The notes beneath the pieces were generated by a model, which searched no databases, had not been told where the DNA came from, and saw only the letters and a list, made by a program, of their open reading frames with translations. 64,000 nucleotides of DNA, taken from positions 310,001-374,000 of the forward strand of contig NZ_ATXE01000003.1 of NCBI RefSeq assembly GCF_000421525.1, given 5' to 3'. Shown piece by piece: positions 23,983 to 36,104 of this stretch. The DNA is from Aestuariimicrobium kwangyangense DSM 21549. GTDB lineage: Bacteria; Actinomycetota; Actinomycetes; Propionibacteriales; Propionibacteriaceae. The first letter of the stretch is position 1. Each line of letters begins with the position of its first letter. The translations under genes were made by a program, and so were the position numbers.

Positions 23983-24723
23983 TCAGCTCCGTCGGCCGGC
24001 CCTCACCGCAGCGATCCTCTGGCGACGCAGTTCGTCCACCTCGGGCACCGCCAGCGGGTCGAGGTCGAGCCCGGTACCCAGCCGAAGCACGTGGTCAGCC
24101 AATTCGGGGTTGCGGGCCAGCACGGGCCCGTGCGGGTAGGTACCGATGACGGTTCCCTGCTGGGTTCCCTCGGTGCCGTCCCCGTTGTTGCCGACTCCCA
24201 CCTCGACCCGGGCGAGCGGAACGGCATCAGCTCCCAGGGTGGTGTGGCCGCCGTGGTTCTCGAAACCCGTCAGCTCGTAGGAGGTGCCGTCCTGGCGCTG
24301 CCAACGCGTGAGGATCTCTCCCACGGCCCGTATCGGGCCGCGGCGGGTGCTGACATCGAGCAGTCCCAGGCCCTCGATCACCTGGTCGTGGTCGCCCACC
24401 GTGAAACTGGTGCCACAGATCTGGTAGCCCGCGCAGACCGCGAACAGGGCTGCCCCCGCCTCGACCGCCCGGAACAGGTTGCCGTCGGCGCGCAGGGCCT
24501 TGACAGCCGAGATCTGGGCGAGGTCCTCGCCACCGCCGAGCAGGTAGACGTGCCCGTCAGCAGGGACCTCCTCGCCCGGTTCGACGACCAGCAATTGATG
24601 GTCGATGCCACGCCACTCCAGACGCTTGCCCAGCACGGTGGCGTTGCCGCGGTCACCGTAGATGCCCAGCAGCGATTGGTAGACCAGCACCAGTTTCACG
24701 GGTCCGTTGACGGGACGGCTCAT
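23983..24723 (-). CDS. gatD: Lipid II isoglutaminyl synthase, glutamine amidotransferase subunit
   Basis: 246 residues, class I-type glutaminase of the CobB/CobQ family. Catalytic Cys97 sits in LFAVCAGYQICG and His198 in TYPHGPVLA; VYLLGGGEDLAQ and FENHGGHT are GatD-like. It releases ammonia from glutamine for MurT to amidate the D-Glu of lipid II. Its ATG overlaps the murT stop (ATGA), so the complex is made stoichiometrically from one message. Confidence 0.93.
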   Translation of the reverse strand: MSRPVNGPVKLVLVYQSLLGIYGDRGNATVLGKRLEWRGIDHQLLVVEPGEEVPADGHVYLLGGGEDLAQISAVKALRADGNLFRAVEAGAALFAVCAGYQICGTSFTVGDHDQVIEGLGLLDVSTRRGPIRAVGEILTRWQRQDGTSYELTGFENHGGHTTLGADAVPLARVEVGVGNNGDGTEGTQQGTVIGTYPHGPVLARNPELADHVLRLGTGLDLDPLAVPEVDELRRQRIAAVRAGRRS

Positions 24724-26024
24724 GCCAGACCTCCGAGTTTCCGCAGTCGCTGGAAGGGGGTGTAGGTGGCGATCACGTCGACCGGTCCGTCGACGCGGGT
24801 GACCTCGGGTCGTCTGAAAGCGGCCGCCAGGTCTGGCTCGACGACGTGGTCGACCCCGGCATGGCGCAACCGCACGGCCAGGTCCTGGGCCCGAGGGCCG
24901 GTGGCGACCACGGTTCGTCCGGCCAGTTGTTCGTAGCGCACGTCCCACAACCACGAGACGTCACGTCCGTCGGCGGCCGCCGAGTCGATGGCCAGCACCA
25001 CCGTCTGACTGGTGGCCAGGGGCAGTGACTCCGCCCAACCCGAGGGGTTCTTGGCCAGCAGCAGGGTGGCGCGGGCGGTGCCGATGGTGGCGGTGGCGTA
25101 ACGGCCGGCGGGTGAGGTCACCGTGGCCATGCCGTCGAGGGCGGTCTGGGCGGGCACGCCCATGGCGCGGGCGGCAGCCAGGGCGCAGGCGGCGTTGGCC
25201 CGGTTGAACCGTCCGGGCACCTGCAGGTCGAGGGTGAAGACGCGACCGTTGGGGTCGCTGACCTCGTCACCGCGCACCGTGTAGTCGGCCACGGGCTGCG
25301 TGAGGGAACAACCGGGGCAGTCCCACCGGGACTGGTCACGCACCAGCAACGAGCCGCACTCCGGGCAGAGCGCCGCGTCCTCGTTCCACACGTCGCCCGT
25401 GTCGACCCAGATCACCCGTCGCGCCGGCTGCGCCGACCACACCACGAGCGGGTCGCAGGCATTCGCGACGACCACGGGTCCGCTGCTGCCCGCCGCTTGC
25501 AGGGCGATCCGCCACGACCGTCCCAAGGACTTGATCTCGTGGTGGCGGTCGAGTTGGTCGCGCGAGAAGTTGAGCAGCACCAGCACCTCGGGACGGCCCA
25601 GTTCGATGACGGTGGCCACCACCCGCTCGTCCGTCTCCAGCACCGCGATCGACGACCGTGGTTGGTTGGCCAGCGCAGAGGCGATGCCGTGGTGCAGGTT
25701 CGCCCCGTCGGCGTTGGTGACCACGTCGTCGGGGTCGGCGACCGAGGCGCGCACGGCTGCGGTCAACAGGTGGGTGGTCGTGGTCTTGCCGTTGGTGCCC
25801 GAGACGCTGGCGATGCGGCGGTCGGCCAGCAACTTCCCCAGCGCCCCCGGGTCGAGACGCAGCATGACGGTTCCCTGGATCGAGGCGCCCGTGCCGCGTC
25901 GAGCCAGGCGCGAGGCGGCAGCCGCCGCCTTGCCTGCCGAGGTGGCGGCGTTCAGTCGCAGCCGACTCAGGGCTCCCGGCTTCGGCGGGCGGAAGGGCAG
26001 TCGAGGAGCGGCCATGTGGGTCAT
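24720..26024 (-). CDS. murT: Lipid II isoglutaminyl synthase, Mur ligase-like subunit
   Basis: 434 residues. ATP-binding SVSGTNGKTTTTHLL, LLNFSRDQLDRHHE and a zinc ribbon of the CPECG...CPGC type characteristic of MurT within the central domain, then a DUF1727-type C-terminal domain (LLLAKNPSGWAE). It activates the alpha-carboxylate of D-Glu in lipid II and uses ammonia from GatD. The start is ATG at 26024 (MTHMAAP); ATG at 26015 is possible. Confidence 0.93.
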   Translation of the reverse strand: MTHMAAPRLPFRPPKPGALSRLRLNAATSAGKAAAAASRLARRGTGASIQGTVMLRLDPGALGKLLADRRIASVSGTNGKTTTTHLLTAAVRASVADPDDVVTNADGANLHHGIASALANQPRSSIAVLETDERVVATVIELGRPEVLVLLNFSRDQLDRHHEIKSLGRSWRIALQAAGSSGPVVVANACDPLVVWSAQPARRVIWVDTGDVWNEDAALCPECGSLLVRDQSRWDCPGCSLTQPVADYTVRGDEVSDPNGRVFTLDLQVPGRFNRANAACALAAARAMGVPAQTALDGMATVTSPAGRYATATIGTARATLLLAKNPSGWAESLPLATSQTVVLAIDSAAADGRDVSWLWDVRYEQLAGRTVVATGPRAQDLAVRLRHAGVDHVVEPDLAAAFRRPEVTRVDGPVDVIATYTPFQRLRKLGGLA

Positions 26025-26258: not shown

Positions 26259-26912
26259 CTAATCGAGCTCCACCGCCGAACCGTCCGCCGTCGTCGCCAC
26301 CGCGCCAGTGAGCGCACCTTGGTGCTTGGCGGCCACCTGCTTGGCCATGGCGCTGGTCGGTCCGACGGGGACGAACACGGCCTCGCGGTAGTAGCGCAGT
26401 TCCTCGATCGACTCCTGGATGTCGGCGAGCGCGCGATGGTTGCCCGACTTGGCGGGGGAGTTGTAGTACGCCTTGGGGTACCACCGTCGCGCCAGTTCCT
26501 TGATCGAGCTGACGTCGACGTTGCGGTAGTGCACGTGGGACTCGAGTTCTGGCATGTCGCGCGCCAGGAACATGCGGTCGGTGCCGATGGTGTTCCCCGC
26601 CAGGGGAGCCCTGCCCGCGGCGGGCACGTGGGTGCGCACGTACTCCAGGACCAACTGCTCGGCCTCGGCCATGGTCAGCCCGTCCTCGAGTTCGACCAGC
26701 AGGCCGGAGGTGGTGTGCATGCTGCGAACGAAGTCGTTCATCTGTGCCAGCGCCTCGGCCGGCGGCTTGATGAGCACGTCGACGCCTTCACCCAGCACGT
26801 TCAGGTCACCGTCGGTGACCAGCGCGGCCACCTCCACCAGGGCATCGGTGGTCAGGTCGAGTCCCGTCATCTCACAATCGATCCAGACGAGCATCTCGTT
26901 GGTCTGCGCCAC
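26259..26912 (-). CDS. orn: Oligoribonuclease
   Basis: 217 residues. DEDDh 3'-5' exoribonuclease that degrades 2-5 nt RNAs and pGp[11 protein letters not shown] holds the first D and [41 protein letters not shown] is strongly Orn-like, and [19 protein letters not shown] supplies the His and last Asp. GTG start with AAGGGG upstream. tRNA-His lies just downstream on the same strand, a common actinobacterial order. Confidence 0.95.
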
Positions 26913-26960: not shown

Positions 26961-27036
26961 TGGCGCCCCAGGCAGGAATCGAACCTGCGCGCGACAGATT
27001 AGAAGGCTGCTGCTCTATCCGCTGAGCTACTGGGGC
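26961..27036 (-). tRNA. tRNA-Arg (anticodon TCT)
   Basis: Acceptor GCCCCAG/CTGGGGC, discriminator G and encoded CCA. The anticodon loop reads CTTCTAA, giving TCT (AGA codons, rare in this GC-rich genome). The stem GCAGC/TCTGT has one mismatch at the base nearest the loop (C/T) and one G-T pair. Confidence 0.9.
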
Positions 27037-27108: not shown

Positions 27109-28485
27109 ATGTCGTCAGCACGTCTGGAGCGCCGAGCTCGTGTCCTCTCGGGGGTGCCGCGCAACCAGCCGCCTCGACCGTGGTACCTCCGCGTCCTGCG
27201 CAGCCCGTGGACGTGGGCGCTGGTCGGAATCCTGCTGGTGGGATTCGTGGGGCTGTTCGACATGTACTGGATGTTGCACGCCGACCGCAAGGTCGAGGGT
27301 GGCACCGTTCCCGGCATCACCAACCAGGCCATGCGGATCGGTGCCAAGTACGCGTGGCCCACGGCCGTGGTGTGGTCGTTGCTGTTCCTGTGGTTCGACC
27401 GTTTCCGCAAGCACCGCGTCGTGACGTGGCTGATCGCCTTCCTCTGGGGGGCCTGCTTCTCCACCTGGATGTCGATCTACGTCAACTCCTGGGCCGGCGA
27501 ACTGCTCAGCGTGCAGGGCAACGGCGACCCGTCGACGGGCGCTCGTCCGGCGGTGTTCGTGGCCCCCTTCGTCGAGGAGTTCTCGAAGGCAACCATCGTG
27601 TTCGCGCTCGCGGTGCTGGCCCGCTACCGCATCGTGTCGATCATGCAGAGCGTCTCGCTCGCCGGGTTGTCTGCCGTGGGCTTCGCCTTCACCGAGAACA
27701 TCATCTACTACGCCCGCGGCTACGAATATGCCTCCCGGACCATCGAGGCCGGCGACGCGGAGCAGGCGTTGCTGTCACTGGTGAGGCTCCGCGGTGTCTA
27801 CACCTCGTTCGGCCACCCGTTCTTCACGACGATGACGGCGATCGGGATCCTGGTCGGGGTGAGGCACCGCAGCAAGCTGGTGCGCATCCTCGCCCCGGTC
27901 ACCGGCTTCCTGGCGGCGGCGCTGGGTCACATGGTGTTCAACGGGGTCGCCTCCAGCGTGCCCGAAGGCGGGGGGATGAAGTACTGGCTGATGGCCGTTG
28001 CGGTCGTCGTCGTGCTCGCCGGCGTGCTGGTTGCGTGGATGATCCGGGAGGGTGGACGAATCCGGGCCCGCCTGAACGATCTGGTGCGGTTCGGGTGGTT
28101 GTTGCCCTCCGACCCCGTGATCTACTCAAGTCTGTGGCGGCGCCTGCGCCTGCTGGTCATCGCGCTCTCGCAACCGTCCCGACTTCCCGCCACGATCCGG
28201 GTCATGCGCCACCTCACGGAGCTGGCCTACCTGCGTGACTCGATGGTGCTGGGCCTGATCGACCGGGTCGGATACGAGCACGCGAGGGAACTGCTCGAGG
28301 TCATCCGCCGGGATCGTCCGGTCGCCGTGACGACGCTGGCGGGTGAGAAGGTTCGGTTGCCCCACCCGGTGGCCTGGCTTCGCTCCCGACGTCAGTTGGC
28401 CGCGGCAGCCGGCCCGGCGCCGCAGTGGGCGCCGCCCTCGTGGGAGCCGAACCAGTGGGGGCCCCCGCCGGGTGGACGCGCGTGA
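27109..28485 (+). CDS. PrsW-family intramembrane metalloprotease
   Basis: 458 residues with about eight hydrophobic segments. The PrsW signature is intact: FVEEFSKATIVFAL (E156, E157), FAFTENIIYYARGY (E196, N197), GHPFFTTMTAIG and ALGHMVFNG His motifs. Family members cut membrane proteins such as anti-sigma factors within the bilayer. A ~150-residue C-terminal cytoplasmic region ends in a Pro/Trp-rich tail (QWAPPSWEPNQWGPPPGG). The stop overlaps the next ATG by one base (TGATG), so the protease is translated with two dynamin-like GTPases; its substrate might be one of them, which is inference. Confidence 0.88.
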   Translation: MSSARLERRARVLSGVPRNQPPRPWYLRVLRSPWTWALVGILLVGFVGLFDMYWMLHADRKVEGGTVPGITNQAMRIGAKYAWPTAVVWSLLFLWFDRFRKHRVVTWLIAFLWGACFSTWMSIYVNSWAGELLSVQGNGDPSTGARPAVFVAPFVEEFSKATIVFALAVLARYRIVSIMQSVSLAGLSAVGFAFTENIIYYARGYEYASRTIEAGDAEQALLSLVRLRGVYTSFGHPFFTTMTAIGILVGVRHRSKLVRILAPVTGFLAAALGHMVFNGVASSVPEGGGMKYWLMAVAVVVVLAGVLVAWMIREGGRIRARLNDLVRFGWLLPSDPVIYSSLWRRLRLLVIALSQPSRLPATIRVMRHLTELAYLRDSMVLGLIDRVGYEHARELLEVIRRDRPVAVTTLAGEKVRLPHPVAWLRSRRQLAAAAGPAPQWAPPSWEPNQWGPPPGGRA

Positions 28486-30437
28486 TGGGCGTTCCGGACG
28501 TGCCGTCCGCGGCCCCTTCGTCCGGGGCCGGGGCCGCCCGTGTGACCGCAGCCCAGCTGGGCGCGGCGCTTGCGACCTTGCGATCGCGGGTGGCCGGGGT
28601 CAGCCTGCCGATCGACCTGCCCGGTACGGCAGACCAACGAAGGAACGCACACGAGCTCGTCCGTCAGTTGGACGACTACGTGTTGCCCCGGCTGGCCACC
28701 CTCGAGGCCCCGCTGCTCACCGTCGTGGGCGGATCCACCGGCGCTGGCAAGTCGACGCTGGTCAACACCCTGGTGGGCCGCACCGTCACCACTCCCGGAG
28801 TCATTCGCCCCACCACCAAGTCGCCGGTCTTGATCCACCATCCCGACGACGAGCACTGGTTCTCCGACGAGCGCATCCTGCCCACGCTGATCCGCTCCAG
28901 GGTGGCCTCACACGACCAGAGTTCCCTGCAGTTGGTGGCGGAGCCGAGCCTGCCACCCGGGCTCGCCGTGCTCGACGCACCCGACTTCGACTCCGTGGAC
29001 GAGCGCAACCGCGAACTGGCGACGGAGTTGTTGCAGGCGGCTGACCTGTGGTTGTTCGTCACCTCAGCTGCCCGGTACGCCGACGCCGTGCCGTGGGAGT
29101 TCCTGCAGCAAGCGGTGCAGCGCAGGGCGGCCGTCGCCGTCGTGCTCGACCGTGTGCCCCCGGCGGCCATGACCGACGTCCCCACCCACCTGGGGCAGAT
29201 GATGACCGAGCGTGGCCTGGGCGACTCCGCGCTGTTCGCCGTGCCCGAGACGGCCACCGATGCCGAGGGGTTGCTGCCTGATGCGGCAGTCTCACCGATA
29301 CGCACCTGGCTCGCCACGCTTGCGGCCGACGAGCGCAGCCGTCAGGCCGTGGTCATGCAGACCCTGACCGGCGCCATCGACTCCATCGGGCCACGAGTGT
29401 CCAGCCTGGCCGCGGCGACCGATGACCAGGTCGAGGCCCTCGAGAGCCTGCGCCAGGACGCTCGCAGCGCCTACGCCGAGGCCGCCCGACAGGTGGCGGT
29501 GCAGTCCGCCGACGGAACCCTGCTGCGGGGTGAGGTGCTCGGTCGCTGGCACGAGTTGGTCGGCACCGGTGAGTTCATGCGTGCCCTCGACCAGCGCATC
29601 AGCTGGCTGCGCGACCGGGTGTGGGGCACCCTCGTCGGCAAGCCACCCGAGGTCGACAAGATGAAGGTGGCGGTCGAGAACGGGCTCGAGGCGCTGGTGC
29701 GCGAAGAGGGGCAGGCAGCCGCCGAGCGCGCAGAAGCCGCCTGGCGGGCCACGCCAGCCGGCCGCTCCCTCCTGGCCAGACACGCTGCCGCCCACGGGCG
29801 GGACGAACTCACTCGCGCCTCGCGGGAGTTCCCGGGCAAGGTCGCCCGCGCGATCCGGGACTGGCAGGGCGACGTCGTCGAACTGGTGGCCGAGGAAGGC
29901 ATGGACAAGCGGTCGAGGGCTCGACTGCTGGCGTTCGGTGTCAACGGTGCCGGGGTGGCCCTCATGGTGACGATCTTTGCCTACACCGGTGGCCTCACGG
30001 GTGCCGAGATCGGCGTGGCCGGTGGCACGTCGGTACTGGCCCAAAGACTGCTCGAGGGCATCATCGGTGACGACGCCGTCCGCGCATTGGCGGAGAGGGC
30101 GAAGGCCGACCTGGATGCCCGGATCGAGACGCTCATGTCGACCGAACTCGCCCGGTTCGAGGCCGTGCTGGCCGAGGCCGGCGTCGCCGACGACCAGGCC
30201 GCCGCCCTGCGGGAATCGGCAGCGGCGGTGGAGCGGGCCCACGTGGAAGGCTTCGACCACGAACGAGCCATCACCGCCGACACCACCACGGCGCGCCGGA
30301 TGAACCCGGCCCGCACCCCGGCGGCGCTCGGCTCGTCCACCTCTGAGCCCGTGGTGACCGTCAGCCAGGTCGCGGCCAGTCCTGCCGAGGTGGTCGACGG
30401 TGAACTGGTCGAGCATCGGGACGGGGACGACCGCTGA
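28485..30437 (+). CDS. Dynamin-like / YfjP-type GTPase 1
   Basis: 650 residues. P-loop GGSTGAGKST (82-91), switch I PTTKSPV, G3 as LDAPDFDSVD; the G4 position reads VVLDRVPP rather than NKxD, so base specificity is uncertain. Long helical regions follow, with a glycine-rich hydrophobic stretch (GVALMVTIFAYTGGLTGAEIGVAGG) near residue 490-515 that could insert in membrane, then a charged tail. The layout resembles bacterial dynamin-like protein pairs. ATG at 28485 shares a base with the prsW stop; GTG at 28482 is an alternative. The second GTPase overlaps its stop (TGATG). Confidence 0.8.
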   Translation: MGVPDVPSAAPSSGAGAARVTAAQLGAALATLRSRVAGVSLPIDLPGTADQRRNAHELVRQLDDYVLPRLATLEAPLLTVVGGSTGAGKSTLVNTLVGRTVTTPGVIRPTTKSPVLIHHPDDEHWFSDERILPTLIRSRVASHDQSSLQLVAEPSLPPGLAVLDAPDFDSVDERNRELATELLQAADLWLFVTSAARYADAVPWEFLQQAVQRRAAVAVVLDRVPPAAMTDVPTHLGQMMTERGLGDSALFAVPETATDAEGLLPDAAVSPIRTWLATLAADERSRQAVVMQTLTGAIDSIGPRVSSLAAATDDQVEALESLRQDARSAYAEAARQVAVQSADGTLLRGEVLGRWHELVGTGEFMRALDQRISWLRDRVWGTLVGKPPEVDKMKVAVENGLEALVREEGQAAAERAEAAWRATPAGRSLLARHAAAHGRDELTRASREFPGKVARAIRDWQGDVVELVAEEGMDKRSRARLLAFGVNGAGVALMVTIFAYTGGLTGAEIGVAGGTSVLAQRLLEGIIGDDAVRALAERAKADLDARIETLMSTELARFEAVLAEAGVADDQAAALRESAAAVERAHVEGFDHERAITADTTTARRMNPARTPAALGSSTSEPVVTVSQVAASPAEVVDGELVEHRDGDDR

Positions 30438-32089
30438 TGGCACGGCAAAGGCCCGTCGCGGAACGACTCCAGGCTCTGGGCCACGTGGTCGAGCAGGTCG
30501 AGGGACGGGTGCCCGACGAGGCGGTCAGGCACGCGGACGAACTGGTCCGTCGCGCGGGCTCGAGGCTGGCGATCGCCGGGGACCACACCGTGGTTGCCCT
30601 GGCCGGTGCCACCGGATCAGGCAAGTCGAGCCTGTTCAACGCGCTGTCCGGAACCCAGCTGGCCGAGCCGGGAGTGCGTCGTCCCACCACGGCGAAGGCC
30701 ATGTCGGTCTCCTGGGGGGATGTGCCCCCCGCGGAACTGCTCGACTGGCTCGACGTGCCACGTCGCCACCAGGTCGAGTTGTCGCGGGTCCCTCGTCCCG
30801 GGTCGCAGGCGCCGGGGCTCGAGGGACTGGTGCTGCTTGACCTTCCCGACCACGACTCGATCGAGGCAGCCCACCGCGCCGAGGTCGATCGACTGGTCGA
30901 CCTGGTCGACCTGCTGGTGTGGGTGGTGGATCCCCAGAAGTACGCCGACGCGGCCCTGCACGAGCGCTACCTGAAGCCACTGGCCGGCCACGCCGAGGTG
31001 ATGCTGGTCGTGCTCAACCAGGTCGACCTGCTCACCCCCGGGCAACTCGTGCAGTGCGAGCGTGACCTGCGTCGCCTGCTCGACAACGAGGGCTTGGGCA
31101 AGGCCCGGATCGCGGCGGTGTCGGCGACGACCGGTCAAGGAGTCGACGCCCTGCGCCGTCAGGTCGTCGACCTGGTCGCCAGGAAGCGGGTGGTGGCCGA
31201 GCGTCTCGGCGCCGACCTCACCCGTGAGGCAGCTCGGTTGGCCCCGGAACTGGGGTTGGACGACTCCGGCTCCGCCGGTGACCCTGCCATCGGTTCCGGC
31301 ACCGTGCGCCAGTTGAACCGGGCGTTGGCCGAGGCGGCGGGGGCCGATGTCGTCACCGAGGCCGTGCTGGCCTCGGTGCGACGACGCGGTGAACTCGTCA
31401 CGGGATGGCCTGTGCTGTCATGGATCGCGTCGCTGCGACCGGACCCGTTGAGGCGTCTGCACCTCGACCGGCTCCCGATCGGGCGCACCAAGAAGTCGCT
31501 GGAGCCGGTCCGCGTTCCCCGCACGGGGCTCGACTCCGGGCAGGGGGCCTCGAAGGCGAGGGTGACCTCGGCGGTCAGGGCGCTGTCGGACGAGGCTGCC
31601 GCCGACCTCCCACGCTCGTGGCAGGACGCGGTCCGCCGTGCCTCCCTCGCCAACCAGGGCGTGCTGGCCGACGAGCTGGACCGGGCGGTGGCCACCACCG
31701 ACCTGGCGATGGACCGCGGCTTCGGCCACTGGCGCGTGATCCAGGTCGTGCAGTGGATCCTGGTGGCTGTGGTGGCCGCTGGACTGCTGTGGCTGGCCGC
31801 CGATCTGGTGTTGGCCTACTTCCACTTCCCGCCCCTGCCGACCCGCAGCTGGCACCGGTTGCCGGTGCAGACCTGGCTCGTGGTCGGGGGAGTGGCCGCT
31901 GGTCTGCTCCTGGCCCTGATCAGTCGCGTGTTCGTCGAGGTGAGCGCGCGAGCCAAGGCCCGCCGGGCCCACGCCGTGCTGACCCGACAGGTCGCGGCCG
32001 TGGCCGAACGGCAGGTGGTGGCGCCGGTCACCGCAGAACTCGTCCGACTTCGCACGGCACGCGAGGCGCTGGGGCGAGTCCGTGGCTGA
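30437..32089 (+). CDS. Dynamin-like / YfjP-type GTPase 2 with two C-terminal TM segments
   Basis: 550 residues. All G motifs are good: GATGSGKSSLFNAL (57-70), switch I PTTAKAM, G3 LLDLPDHDS, G4 LNQVD, G5 SATTGQGVD. Two TM helices near 437-461 and 480-498 anchor it, followed by a cytoplasmic helix of about 50 residues. It is paired with a GTPase whose G4 is degenerate, as in systems where one partner regulates the other. ThuA-like protein starts 8 bases inside its 3' end. Confidence 0.82.
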   Translation: MARQRPVAERLQALGHVVEQVEGRVPDEAVRHADELVRRAGSRLAIAGDHTVVALAGATGSGKSSLFNALSGTQLAEPGVRRPTTAKAMSVSWGDVPPAELLDWLDVPRRHQVELSRVPRPGSQAPGLEGLVLLDLPDHDSIEAAHRAEVDRLVDLVDLLVWVVDPQKYADAALHERYLKPLAGHAEVMLVVLNQVDLLTPGQLVQCERDLRRLLDNEGLGKARIAAVSATTGQGVDALRRQVVDLVARKRVVAERLGADLTREAARLAPELGLDDSGSAGDPAIGSGTVRQLNRALAEAAGADVVTEAVLASVRRRGELVTGWPVLSWIASLRPDPLRRLHLDRLPIGRTKKSLEPVRVPRTGLDSGQGASKARVTSAVRALSDEAAADLPRSWQDAVRRASLANQGVLADELDRAVATTDLAMDRGFGHWRVIQVVQWILVAVVAAGLLWLAADLVLAYFHFPPLPTRSWHRLPVQTWLVVGGVAAGLLLALISRVFVEVSARAKARRAHAVLTRQVAAVAERQVVAPVTAELVRLRTAREALGRVRG

Positions 32090-32714
32090 CCTGTTGCTGG
32101 TCACCGCCACCCACGAGGCGTTCAGGCACTCAGCCGCGATCGAGGCGGGGGTGGCGCTGTTCGCTCGCCTGGCCGTCGAGGCGGGGCTCGACCTGCTCCA
32201 CACCGAGGACACCTCGGTGCTCAACCCCGATGACCTCGCTCGGGCCCGCGCTGTGGTCTTCCACCAGTGCAACGGTGAGATCCTCACTGACGACCAGCGG
32301 GCCTGCCTGCAGTCGGCAGTGCGAGCGGGGTGTGGGTTCGCTGCCGTGCACAACTCCACCGGTGCCGAGCGTGGCTGGCCGGGCTACCTGGAACTGGTCG
32401 GGGCACGGTTCCGCAGCCATCCACCCCTCGACGAACAGCGGCGGGGCTTGCGGGCGGTCGCTCCCGACCCGTCCACCCAGCACCTGCCCGACCCCTGGTC
32501 GTGGTCGGACGAGTGGTACGAGTTCGAGTCGGAGCCAGTCGGAGTCGAACCACTGGTGGTGCTCGCCGACGAACCCAACCGCCCCCTGAGCTGGCGTGGG
32601 CGACTGGGTCTGGGCCGAACCTGGTACACCGCCCTCGGGCATCGTGCCGAGGCCTACTCAGATCGGGTCTTCGTCGACCACGTGTGGGGCGGCATCACCG
32701 GCGTGATGCGCTGA
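32082..32714 (+). CDS. ThuA-like protein (class I GATase-like fold)
   Basis: 210 residues matching the ThuA family: LLLVTATHEAFRHSAAI, FHQCNGEILTDDQRACLQSAVRAGCGFAAVHNST, WSWSDEWYEFES, and GLGRTWYTALGHRAEAYSD near the end. ThuA proteins are linked with trehalose or other sugar metabolism but their chemistry is not defined here. GTG overlaps the GTPase 2 gene, so it is the last gene of the operon. Its 3' 57 bases overlap the convergent rRNA methyltransferase gene. Confidence 0.85.
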   Translation: MADLLLVTATHEAFRHSAAIEAGVALFARLAVEAGLDLLHTEDTSVLNPDDLARARAVVFHQCNGEILTDDQRACLQSAVRAGCGFAAVHNSTGAERGWPGYLELVGARFRSHPPLDEQRRGLRAVAPDPSTQHLPDPWSWSDEWYEFESEPVGVEPLVVLADEPNRPLSWRGRLGLGRTWYTALGHRAEAYSDRVFVDHVWGGITGVMR

Positions 32715-33662
32715 CGACCCGCTCCCGGGAACAACAGGGGACTGTTCCGCGGGCACCAGATGGTCGCGCGCCCAGTCATCGGCCGCTGGGTCATCGCGCG
32801 CTGGGTCATCGGGCGGCTGCACCAGCGTGCCGACGAAGTGCACCGTGATCTCCAGCCGGTCGAGGGCACTGATCCGCTCGACCCCCTCCTCGGGAGCATT
32901 CCAGCGGTAGGGCGTCATCCCCCACACCTGCATGATCTCCTCGTTGCTCCCCAGCGTCACGCGGGCCTCGAATCGTCGCTGCTCCAGCACCGGCCAGGAC
33001 CGGGCCAGCAGTACTTCCTCGTCGTGGGGGCGGTAGTCGCGGTACAGCTGGGCCCTCAGTTCGGCGAGGTGGGAGTCGCCGGGGGTGACCAGCAGGGCTC
33101 GGCCGCCCGGGGCCAGCACGCGAGCGAACTCGCTGCCGAGCACCGGTGACATCACGCTGGTGAGCAGGTCGACCGATCCGTCGACGGCCGGCAACTGGTT
33201 GACCGAGGCGACGACGGCGACGGCTCGGGGCACCCGGCGGGCCGTGAGCCTCATGGCCGGACGGGAGATGTCGAACGCCACCCAGTGGTCGTCGTGCAGG
33301 TGCTTGCCCTCGGGGCGACTCGAGGAGTCGTCGGGTATGGCCGACAGCATCGCCTCGGTGAACGTGCCCTCGCCGCAGCCGACGTCGAGCATCGTCTCGG
33401 GCATCAACTCGCCCACCCACTCGTGCAGGCCCTCACTGAGGACGCGGTAGTGGCCACGATCGAGGAATGCCCGCCGTGCAGCGACCATTGACTGGTCGTC
33501 ACCCTGCGCCCGCGACCTCGACTTGCCGGGAGTCAGCAGGTGCAGGTGCCCGTCGCGGGCCTGGTCGAAACTGTGACCGGCCCGGCAGCGGGCCACCCGG
33601 TCGCGCAGGCGCAGCCGGTCGCCGCACACCGGGCAGGCGAGGATGCCGTCGCGTTCGCTCAT
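32658..33662 (-). CDS. rlmA: 23S rRNA (guanine-N1) methyltransferase, RlmA type
   Basis: 334 residues. An N-terminal zinc ribbon (CPVCGDRLRLRDRVARCRAGHSFD) and a SAM-binding MLDVGCGEGTFTEAML, then VTLGSNEEIMQVWGMTPYRWN, match the RlmA family that methylates G745 or G748. Gram-positive members often target G748. A low-complexity C-terminal tail of about 55 residues (from PPDDPARDDPAADDW) is longer than family norm and lies partly antisense to the ThuA-like gene. Its 15-bp repeats are listed separately. ATG at 33662. Confidence 0.85.
   Translation of the reverse strand: MSERDGILACPVCGDRLRLRDRVARCRAGHSFDQARDGHLHLLTPGKSRSRAQGDDQSMVAARRAFLDRGHYRVLSEGLHEWVGELMPETMLDVGCGEGTFTEAMLSAIPDDSSSRPEGKHLHDDHWVAFDISRPAMRLTARRVPRAVAVVASVNQLPAVDGSVDLLTSVMSPVLGSEFARVLAPGGRALLVTPGDSHLAELRAQLYRDYRPHDEEVLLARSWPVLEQRRFEARVTLGSNEEIMQVWGMTPYRWNAPEEGVERISALDRLEITVHFVGTLVQPPDDPARDDPAADDWARDHLVPAEQSPVVPGSGSSAHHAGDAAPHVVDEDPI
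32771..32815. repeat. 15-bp tandem repeat (three copies) in the rlmA tail
   Basis: Units CCCAGTCATCGGCCG, CTGGGTCATCGCGCG and CTGGGTCATCGGGCG follow one another, coding DDPAR-like pentapeptides on the minus strand. It lies in the C-terminal extension of rlmA near the overlap with the ThuA-like gene. Confidence 0.7.
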
Positions 33663-33694
33663 GGTCCCGATTCTTCCAGCCTCGGAGCGGACTG

Positions 33695-33733
33695 TTGTCC
33701 ACAAGCGAGGGGGAGGTCGAAGGGTTGTCCACA
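33695..33733 (+). promoter_or_regulatory. Two perfect DnaA boxes upstream of ssb
   Basis: TTGTCCACA occurs at 33695-33703 and 33725-33733, exactly 30 bases apart in the same direction. This nonamer is the preferred high-GC actinobacterial DnaA box. The intervening 21 bases are purine rich. The sites lie 91-129 bases before the ssb ATG. Confidence 0.65.
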
Positions 33734-33823
33734 GCCCGGCATCGCGGGCGGGACCATCCCGGGAGTTCCGGTCACAACTCAGGTGACTGCCCTTCGGCAG
33801 ACCATCCCTGGAGAGGACCATTC

Positions 33824-34288
33824 ATGGACGCAACCATCAGCCTGTCGGGAAACATCGGCACCGACGTCGAGACCTTCACCGGCGACGACTGGGAACTGGC
33901 CCGGTTCCGCCTCGCCTGCACTCCGAGGGTGCGCCGCGGAGGGGAGTGGACCGATGGTGAGACAACCTGGATCTCGGTGAGGGCCTCCAACCGGTTGGCC
34001 CGCAACGTCGCCGCCAGCCTGCACAAGGGTGACCCCGTGGTCGTCACCGGCCGGCTGCGCACCCACGTCTGGCAGGACGCCGAGGGTGTCAAGCAGGACC
34101 GTCTCATCGTCGAGGCCTCGTCGGTGGGTCACGATCTCAACCGGGGCACCACCAACTTCGCCCGCAACGAGCGGGTGGCCTCACCGGCATCCCCGGGGGA
34201 ACCGGTCGACCGTGACGACGTGGACCCTGAACCCGTCGATGAGCCCGCCCCGGACGAACAGGTGCCCGGGCTCGGGGGCCGCGACTGA
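33824..34288 (+). CDS. ssb: Single-stranded DNA-binding protein
   Basis: 154 residues. The OB fold is clear: ISLSGNIGTDVETFTGDDWELARFRLACTPRVRRGGEWTDGETTWISVRASNRLARNVAASLHKGDPVVVTGRLRTHVWQDAEGVKQDRLIVEA, then an acidic disordered tail ending VPGLGGRD rather than the classical DDDIPF-like tip. The missing tip and the location away from rpsF/rpsR suggest the paralog SsbB-type, used in recombination or transformation. Strong RBS GGAGAGGA 6 bases before the ATG. Upstream DnaA boxes may link it to replication control. Confidence 0.88.
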   Translation: MDATISLSGNIGTDVETFTGDDWELARFRLACTPRVRRGGEWTDGETTWISVRASNRLARNVAASLHKGDPVVVTGRLRTHVWQDAEGVKQDRLIVEASSVGHDLNRGTTNFARNERVASPASPGEPVDRDDVDPEPVDEPAPDEQVPGLGGRD

Positions 34289-34421
34289 GCTCAGGGCGCA
34301 GGAACCATCCGGAGCGCGTTCACTGGCATACTGGACGACGGTCCGCGCCTGTGCGGTGCGGCCGTTCCCCGGGGCGTGCGAGCGCACCGGACGACGTCGA
34401 TGCGAAGGAAACGCGCCACTC

Positions 34422-36104
<1,683 letters not shown>

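Follow-up and report, generated by a model that had tools for sequence, protein, structure and literature searches.

The genes considered here raise the question of why a PrsW-family intramembrane metalloprotease should stand directly in front of two dynamin-like GTPases, and whether these genes, together with the ThuA-family gene that follows them, form a single functional device. They lie in a 64,000-nucleotide stretch of the 3.0-Mb genome of Aestuariimicrobium kwangyangense, a member of the Propionibacteriaceae (genome G000, contig C3, positions 310001-374000); this whole stretch is called the window below. An earlier note, written from the letters of the window, described an operon of four overlapping or abutting genes and proposed a membrane device, possibly a defensive one. 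The four plus-strand reading frames at 27109-32714 are indeed there, by ORF calling and Pfam, and each overlaps the next: the TGA of PrsW and the ATG of GTPase 1 overlap as TGATG, the TGA of GTPase 1 is overlapped by the ATG of GTPase 2, and ThuA begins at a GTG with an 8-nt overlap with the end of GTPase 2. The Pfam scores of all four exceed the family cut-offs. What the earlier note did not recognize is the identity of the pair: GTPase 1 is very probably DynA and GTPase 2 DynB, members of the family known from Streptomyces. The locus is thus a known kind of dynamin pair with an order-specific PrsW neighbor.

Identity and distribution of the dynamin pair

In Streptomyces, DynA (vnz_12110) and DynB (vnz_12105) are encoded by neighboring genes (PMC6428758), and DynB, which has two transmembrane segments, stabilizes Z-rings together with SepX; the co-occurrence of DynB and SepX extends to unicellular actinobacteria (PMC8748795). 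The window likewise holds two adjacent dynamin-like genes, in the same order with DynA first and with two apparent transmembrane segments in the second partner. For comparison we used four Streptomyces-like genomes of 8-10 Mb (group f6/g22; the Streptomyces label is itself inferred), in each of which there is only one locus with an adjacent Dynamin_N pair. Three of these loci were read, and in each the pair adjoins the gene for a single-stranded DNA-binding protein (SSB) and, where the stretch is long enough, that of the ABC-F protein EttA, the same neighborhood as in the window. The G1, G2, G3 and G4 signatures are the same in both, and the window pair is orthologous to the Streptomyces-like one: the two proteins of genome G050 find the window pair as their best match, partner to partner, and the matches are reciprocal. 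The Streptomyces-like loci differ in having no adjacent PrsW and in the long N-terminal extension of their DynB. An N-terminal extension of this kind is also seen in DynA of Kribbella (locus L032, 5887-9120, about 500 aa; locus L049, 5261-7537). The gap of 1.2-2.4 kb between PrsW and DynA in Kribbella was considered as a possible extra gene and rejected, since L032, the one locus read in detail, shows the DynA extension there. A literature search on SCO2683/ssbB yielded nothing relevant.

The GTPase pair is widespread in Actinobacteria. Among 246 genomes spread evenly across the phylum, GTPase 2 was present in 45 (threshold E<1e-25), nearly all of them with GTPase 1 adjoining, and in the approximately 100 loci read in detail the two are almost always same-strand neighbors, mostly spaced by 0-60 nt as extrapolated from the profiles. 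No match to GTPase 2 was found in six genomes of family f7, possibly Mycobacteriaceae. Closer to home, 101 of 119 Propionibacteriaceae genomes, each at least 90% complete, carry the pair, and within the Propionibacteriales it looks vertically inherited.

Several loci are of interest in their own right. Six (L132, L133, L134, L135, L139 and L144) contain two DynAB-type pairs, one on each side of SSB-EttA; they come from Cellulomonadaceae, Promicromonosporaceae and Sanguibacter, the genera being Cellulomonas, Isoptericola, Cellulosimicrobium and Sanguibacter. The two pairs sit in separate parts of the GTPase 2 tree, which suggests an old duplication or a transfer. A contig labelled as a Spirochaetaceae metagenome-assembled genome (L113) carries an actinobacterial Orn-DynA-DynB-SSB-EttA array and is probably mis-binned, and 'Streptomyces sp. 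SID13031' (L104) falls inside Kribbella in the GTPase 2 tree and is probably a misnamed record.

Motifs, membrane segments and fold

The earlier note had credited GTPase 1 with an intact P-loop, a non-canonical G4 and a hydrophobic insertion, and each of these features was found again, the insertion being a single hydrophobic segment at aa 481-499 by hydropathy. Motif conservation was counted over 119-121 homologs of GTPase 1 and 125 of GTPase 2. G1 is intact in both partners, reading GGSTGAGKST in GTPase 1 and GATGSGKSS in GTPase 2. At G4, GTPase 2 has NQVD in the window and NxxD in all 125 homologs; GTPase 1 has LDRVP, with no NKxD, and most of its homologs have D/N-R-x-P at this place, so that the nonstandard G4 characterizes the family as a whole.

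For GTPase 2, the two transmembrane helices of the earlier description stand (TM-like segments at aa 441-459 and 482-500 by hydropathy, with long helices at 430-461 and 477-549 in the AlphaFold2 model), but its full set of G motifs does not. The canonical dynamin G3 is DxPG, and neither partner has it: the motif reads DAPDFDS in GTPase 1 and DLPDHDS in GTPase 2, with aspartate in place of the glycine in 119/119 and 125/125 homologs, respectively. The form D-x-P-D-x-D-S is kept in every one of the 119 GTPase 1 homologs, while in GTPase 2 the three aspartates and the serine are invariant (125/125) and the proline is present in 120/125. These departures at G3, with that of GTPase 1 at G4, lower the claim that can be made for a canonical GTPase cycle; dynamin kinship, which follows from fold and Pfam, is unaffected. 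Our search of the literature, with most subscription papers outside it, found no account of G3/G4 changes in this dynamin family.

AlphaFold2 models, built from alignments of 42 sequences collected in the analysis, scored well for both GTPase 1 (pLDDT 86.8, pTM 0.82) and GTPase 2 (pLDDT 90.1, pTM 0.81), and together with Foldseek they give each protein the dynamin layout of a GTPase domain followed by a helical neck and trunk. The top Foldseek matches in the PDB are bacterial dynamins: BDLP (2j69; Nostoc BDLP1), the Campylobacter jejuni DLP pair (5owv/5oxf) and mycobacterial IniA (6j72), with E-values of about 1e-7 to 1e-10 and a probability of 1.00. BDLP and IniA are among the best folds for GTPase 1, and the Campylobacter pair and BDLP are the best for GTPase 2. 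Whole-chain TM-scores are low (0.2-0.3), probably owing to differing hinge positions. DLP1 and DLP2 resemble the window proteins further in forming a side-by-side heterotypic pair. Where the canonical dynamin G3 is DxPG, that of the window pair is DxPD; a PDB sequence search with the GTPase family gave no match past the P-loop region and found none of DLP1/DLP2, BDLP1 or IniA.

Such folds make it natural to ask whether the pair serves membrane repair or the envelope-stress response, in the manner of Bacillus DynA or mycobacterial IniA and with no special link to division. The matches to IniA and BDLP are what that would lead one to expect, a bacterial dynamin pair has been reported to tether membranes (PMC6104087), and the many losses of the pair are in keeping with a function needed only under some conditions. 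However, the nearest characterized relatives, Streptomyces DynAB, are divisome proteins, and in the loci read from the various orders no stress-response gene was recognized next to the pair. We regard this explanation as doubtful, though it deserves more weight than the other alternatives discussed below.

PrsW and its link to the pair

By Pfam and by the E/E, E, H and H motifs of its membrane region, the first gene of the locus encodes a member of the PrsW family, and E156, E157, E196, H236 and H274 are invariant in an alignment of 18 orthologs. A search of the PDB with the PrsW profile gave no match. Bacillus subtilis PrsW, of the same PF13367 family and with the same conserved motifs, cleaves the anti-sigma factor RsiW (PMC3482391); no anti-sigma gene was recognized beside the window PrsW.

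DynA is immediately preceded by PrsW in 53/53 testable loci of the Propionibacteriales (Propionibacteriaceae, Nocardioidaceae and Kribbellaceae, the groups f1, f2 and f3 being assigned by kinship) versus 0/46 loci of other orders; in families f8 and f9 a PrsW is found 4-6 kb upstream of DynA. Within the Propionibacteriaceae, PrsW occurs in 115/119 genomes, and it is adjacent to DynA on the same strand in 96 of the 99 that have both, the present genome excluded. The exceptions are G282, where the two are 3.8 kb apart, G286, where they are 281 kb apart, and G002, where they lie on separate contigs. Almost every Propionibacteriales genome with the pair has PrsW, GTPase 1 and GTPase 2 in the same collinear arrangement, which is therefore far from chance; ThuA does not share it. 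PrsW and the two GTPases look like one transcription unit; scans for promoters and terminators at the locus found no sites and were uninformative.

The link is order-wide but also separable, as the genomes without the pair show. PrsW is present without the pair in 15 Propionibacteriaceae genomes, and three genomes lack both. In eight of the pairless genomes (G004, G284, G301, G371, G332, G346, G362 and G367) SSB and/or EttA come directly after PrsW, and in 6/8 of these loci the stretch read still has the oligoribonuclease gene orn on the other side, much as if the pair had been cleanly excised. In G286, PrsW stands beside SSB and EttA with the dynamin pair elsewhere. Orn-PrsW-SSB-EttA is therefore the constant framework, in which the pair is a dispensable cassette. 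That PrsW is kept without the pair argues against its existing solely to process the pair, although processing could still occur where both are present.

These observations bear on a second alternative, a regulated device in which PrsW would cleave DynB, or a membrane protein bound to DynB, inside the membrane and so act as an on/off switch for the pair when the envelope is stressed. The same-strand adjacency just described, often with little or no gap, speaks for such a device, as do the two transmembrane helices of DynB and the retention of all catalytic motifs in PrsW. Weighed against it are the 15 family genomes that have PrsW but no pair, in several of which PrsW keeps its place between Orn and SSB/EttA, and the persistence of the pair without an adjacent PrsW in all other orders. 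In the literature searched, which left most subscription papers outside, no relevant paper links PrsW with a dynamin pair. We consider the device unlikely. Slightly less likely again is a version in which, across the Propionibacteriales, the co-transcribed PrsW would act on DynAB as its target or through it as its effector, so that a bacterial dynamin would be under the control of regulated intramembrane proteolysis. The Gly-to-Asp change at G3 in both partners and the lost G4 specificity residue of DynA would then be signs of an unusual, asymmetric nucleotide cycle.

In PrsW orthologs of the Propionibacteriaceae, the C-terminal codons (28426-28482 in the window) encode a short conserved motif, often YSxVDPxWGPP, preceded by a variable and probably disordered linker. 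This W-x-P-P tail was considered as a site at which the pair might dock, an idea weakened, along with that of the regulated device, by its retention in the pairless genome G004.

ThuA, neighboring genes and the question of defense

The features of the locus are listed in Table 1. ThuA was found in 1/119 Propionibacteriaceae genomes, that of A. kwangyangense itself, and not in G001 of the same genus; its nearest relatives found, at 45%, come from family f4, within the same order, and lie at other genomic places. On these grounds we rejected ThuA as a functional fourth member. ThuA and an RlmA-type ORF fill the approximately 1.7 kb between DynB and SSB, where the usual gap in the family is 100-200 nt. 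The RlmA-type ORF is convergent, overlaps the 3' end of ThuA and is missing from the corresponding place in about 100 related loci; it is inserted together with ThuA or next to it. From this comparison ThuA is a recent, lineage-specific insertion, a passenger outside the conserved unit, though its start overlaps the dynB stop codon and co-transcription is thus possible. The RlmA-type ORF is also related to the Erm32, MyrA and ChrB models, with scores below their cut-offs.

Table 1. Features at and around the PrsW-DynA-DynB locus (window coordinates)
Feature	Position	Strand	Evidence
Oligoribonuclease Orn, conserved divergent neighbor upstream of PrsW	26259..26912	-	NCBIfam 266 bits
tRNA-Arg(TCT), divergent, upstream of PrsW	26961..27036	-	ARAGORN
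PrsW-family intramembrane metalloprotease, 458 aa	27109..28485	+	ORF; PF13367 117 bits
DynA-type dynamin-like GTPase (GTPase 1), 650 aa	28485..30437	+	ORF; Dynamin_N 48 bits
DynB-type dynamin-like GTPase (GTPase 2), 550 aa	30437..32089	+	ORF; Dynamin_N 30 bits
ThuA-family protein, 210 aa	32082..32714	+	PF06283 152.9 bits, cut-off 33.4
RlmA-type 23S rRNA guanine methyltransferase ORF, true start probably internal	32658..33821	-	Pfam, NCBIfam
Single-stranded DNA-binding protein (SSB), start approximate	33815..34288	+	hmmsearch with window-derived profiles
ABC-F protein, EttA type, start approximate	34418..36104	+	ORF; profile search

Conservation of the neighborhood, on which the reading of the four genes as one group depended, therefore has three outcomes: it holds for the pair across Actinobacteria, for PrsW with the pair in the Propionibacteriales only, and for ThuA with nothing. 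SSB and EttA are the conserved downstream neighbors of the pair in the profile search of the loci. A MurT/GatD-type gene pair (23983-26015, minus strand) adjoins Orn in the window as well as in L030, L165 and L168, and lengthens the conserved neighborhood. The tRNA-Arg gene was considered as an island integration site, which is unsupported because conserved synteny covers both sides.

Some bacterial dynamins are linked to phage tolerance, and an anti-phage defense island made up of PrsW, the dynamins and ThuA might be imagined on that account. PADLOC, however, returned weak P-loop matches only (best 17.8 bits) and no convincing defense model, and we rejected the island on this result. The neighbors (Orn, tRNAs, SSB, EttA) are housekeeping genes, the position is fixed throughout the order, relatives lack ThuA, and the pair appears to have been inherited vertically. 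A defensive role is very improbable.

Proposed function

The best explanation, and in our judgment a fairly probable one, is that of a DynA-DynB pair with a septal role, co-transcribed with a PrsW that is independent of it. DynA and DynB would be unequal dynamin-like GTPases forming an obligate pair, in which DynB, anchored in the membrane by its two transmembrane helices, would bind guanine through its normal G4, and DynA, with one hydrophobic segment and a nonstandard G4, would probably be its heterotypic partner. The two may come together at the cytoplasmic membrane, with the division site as the most likely place, and there stabilize the FtsZ ring and/or shape the septal membrane as Streptomyces DynAB do. 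In the Propionibacteriales the pair would be transcribed behind a PrsW with an ancestral job of its own, one that it could perform without the pair as well, presumably the cleavage of a membrane protein in an envelope signal. Of the membrane device proposed in the earlier note, the apparent transcription unit and the probable action at the membrane survive, and the membership of ThuA and the defensive purpose do not.

Several points weigh against this explanation. Identity between the window pair and the Streptomyces-like pair is only 42-46%, and the link to DynA/DynB, almost certain as it appears, is drawn from the uniqueness of the Streptomyces-like pair, gene order and the number of transmembrane segments. 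A septal role in the Propionibacteriales, the most likely one, is argued by analogy with Streptomyces DynAB, and removal of DLP1/2 in Campylobacter gave no obvious division defect (PMC6104087). Finally, the pair is missing from 18 of the 119 Propionibacteriaceae genomes and is therefore dispensable.

The order-wide PrsW-DynAB operon and the family-wide G3/G4 changes were not found in the literature searched, and we do not claim that they are unreported. Their recognition places an operon of the Propionibacteriaceae, Cutibacterium included, within a family characterized for its part in cell division, and it points to dynamin G3 and G4 motifs that are altered throughout the family, a departure open to biochemical testing.

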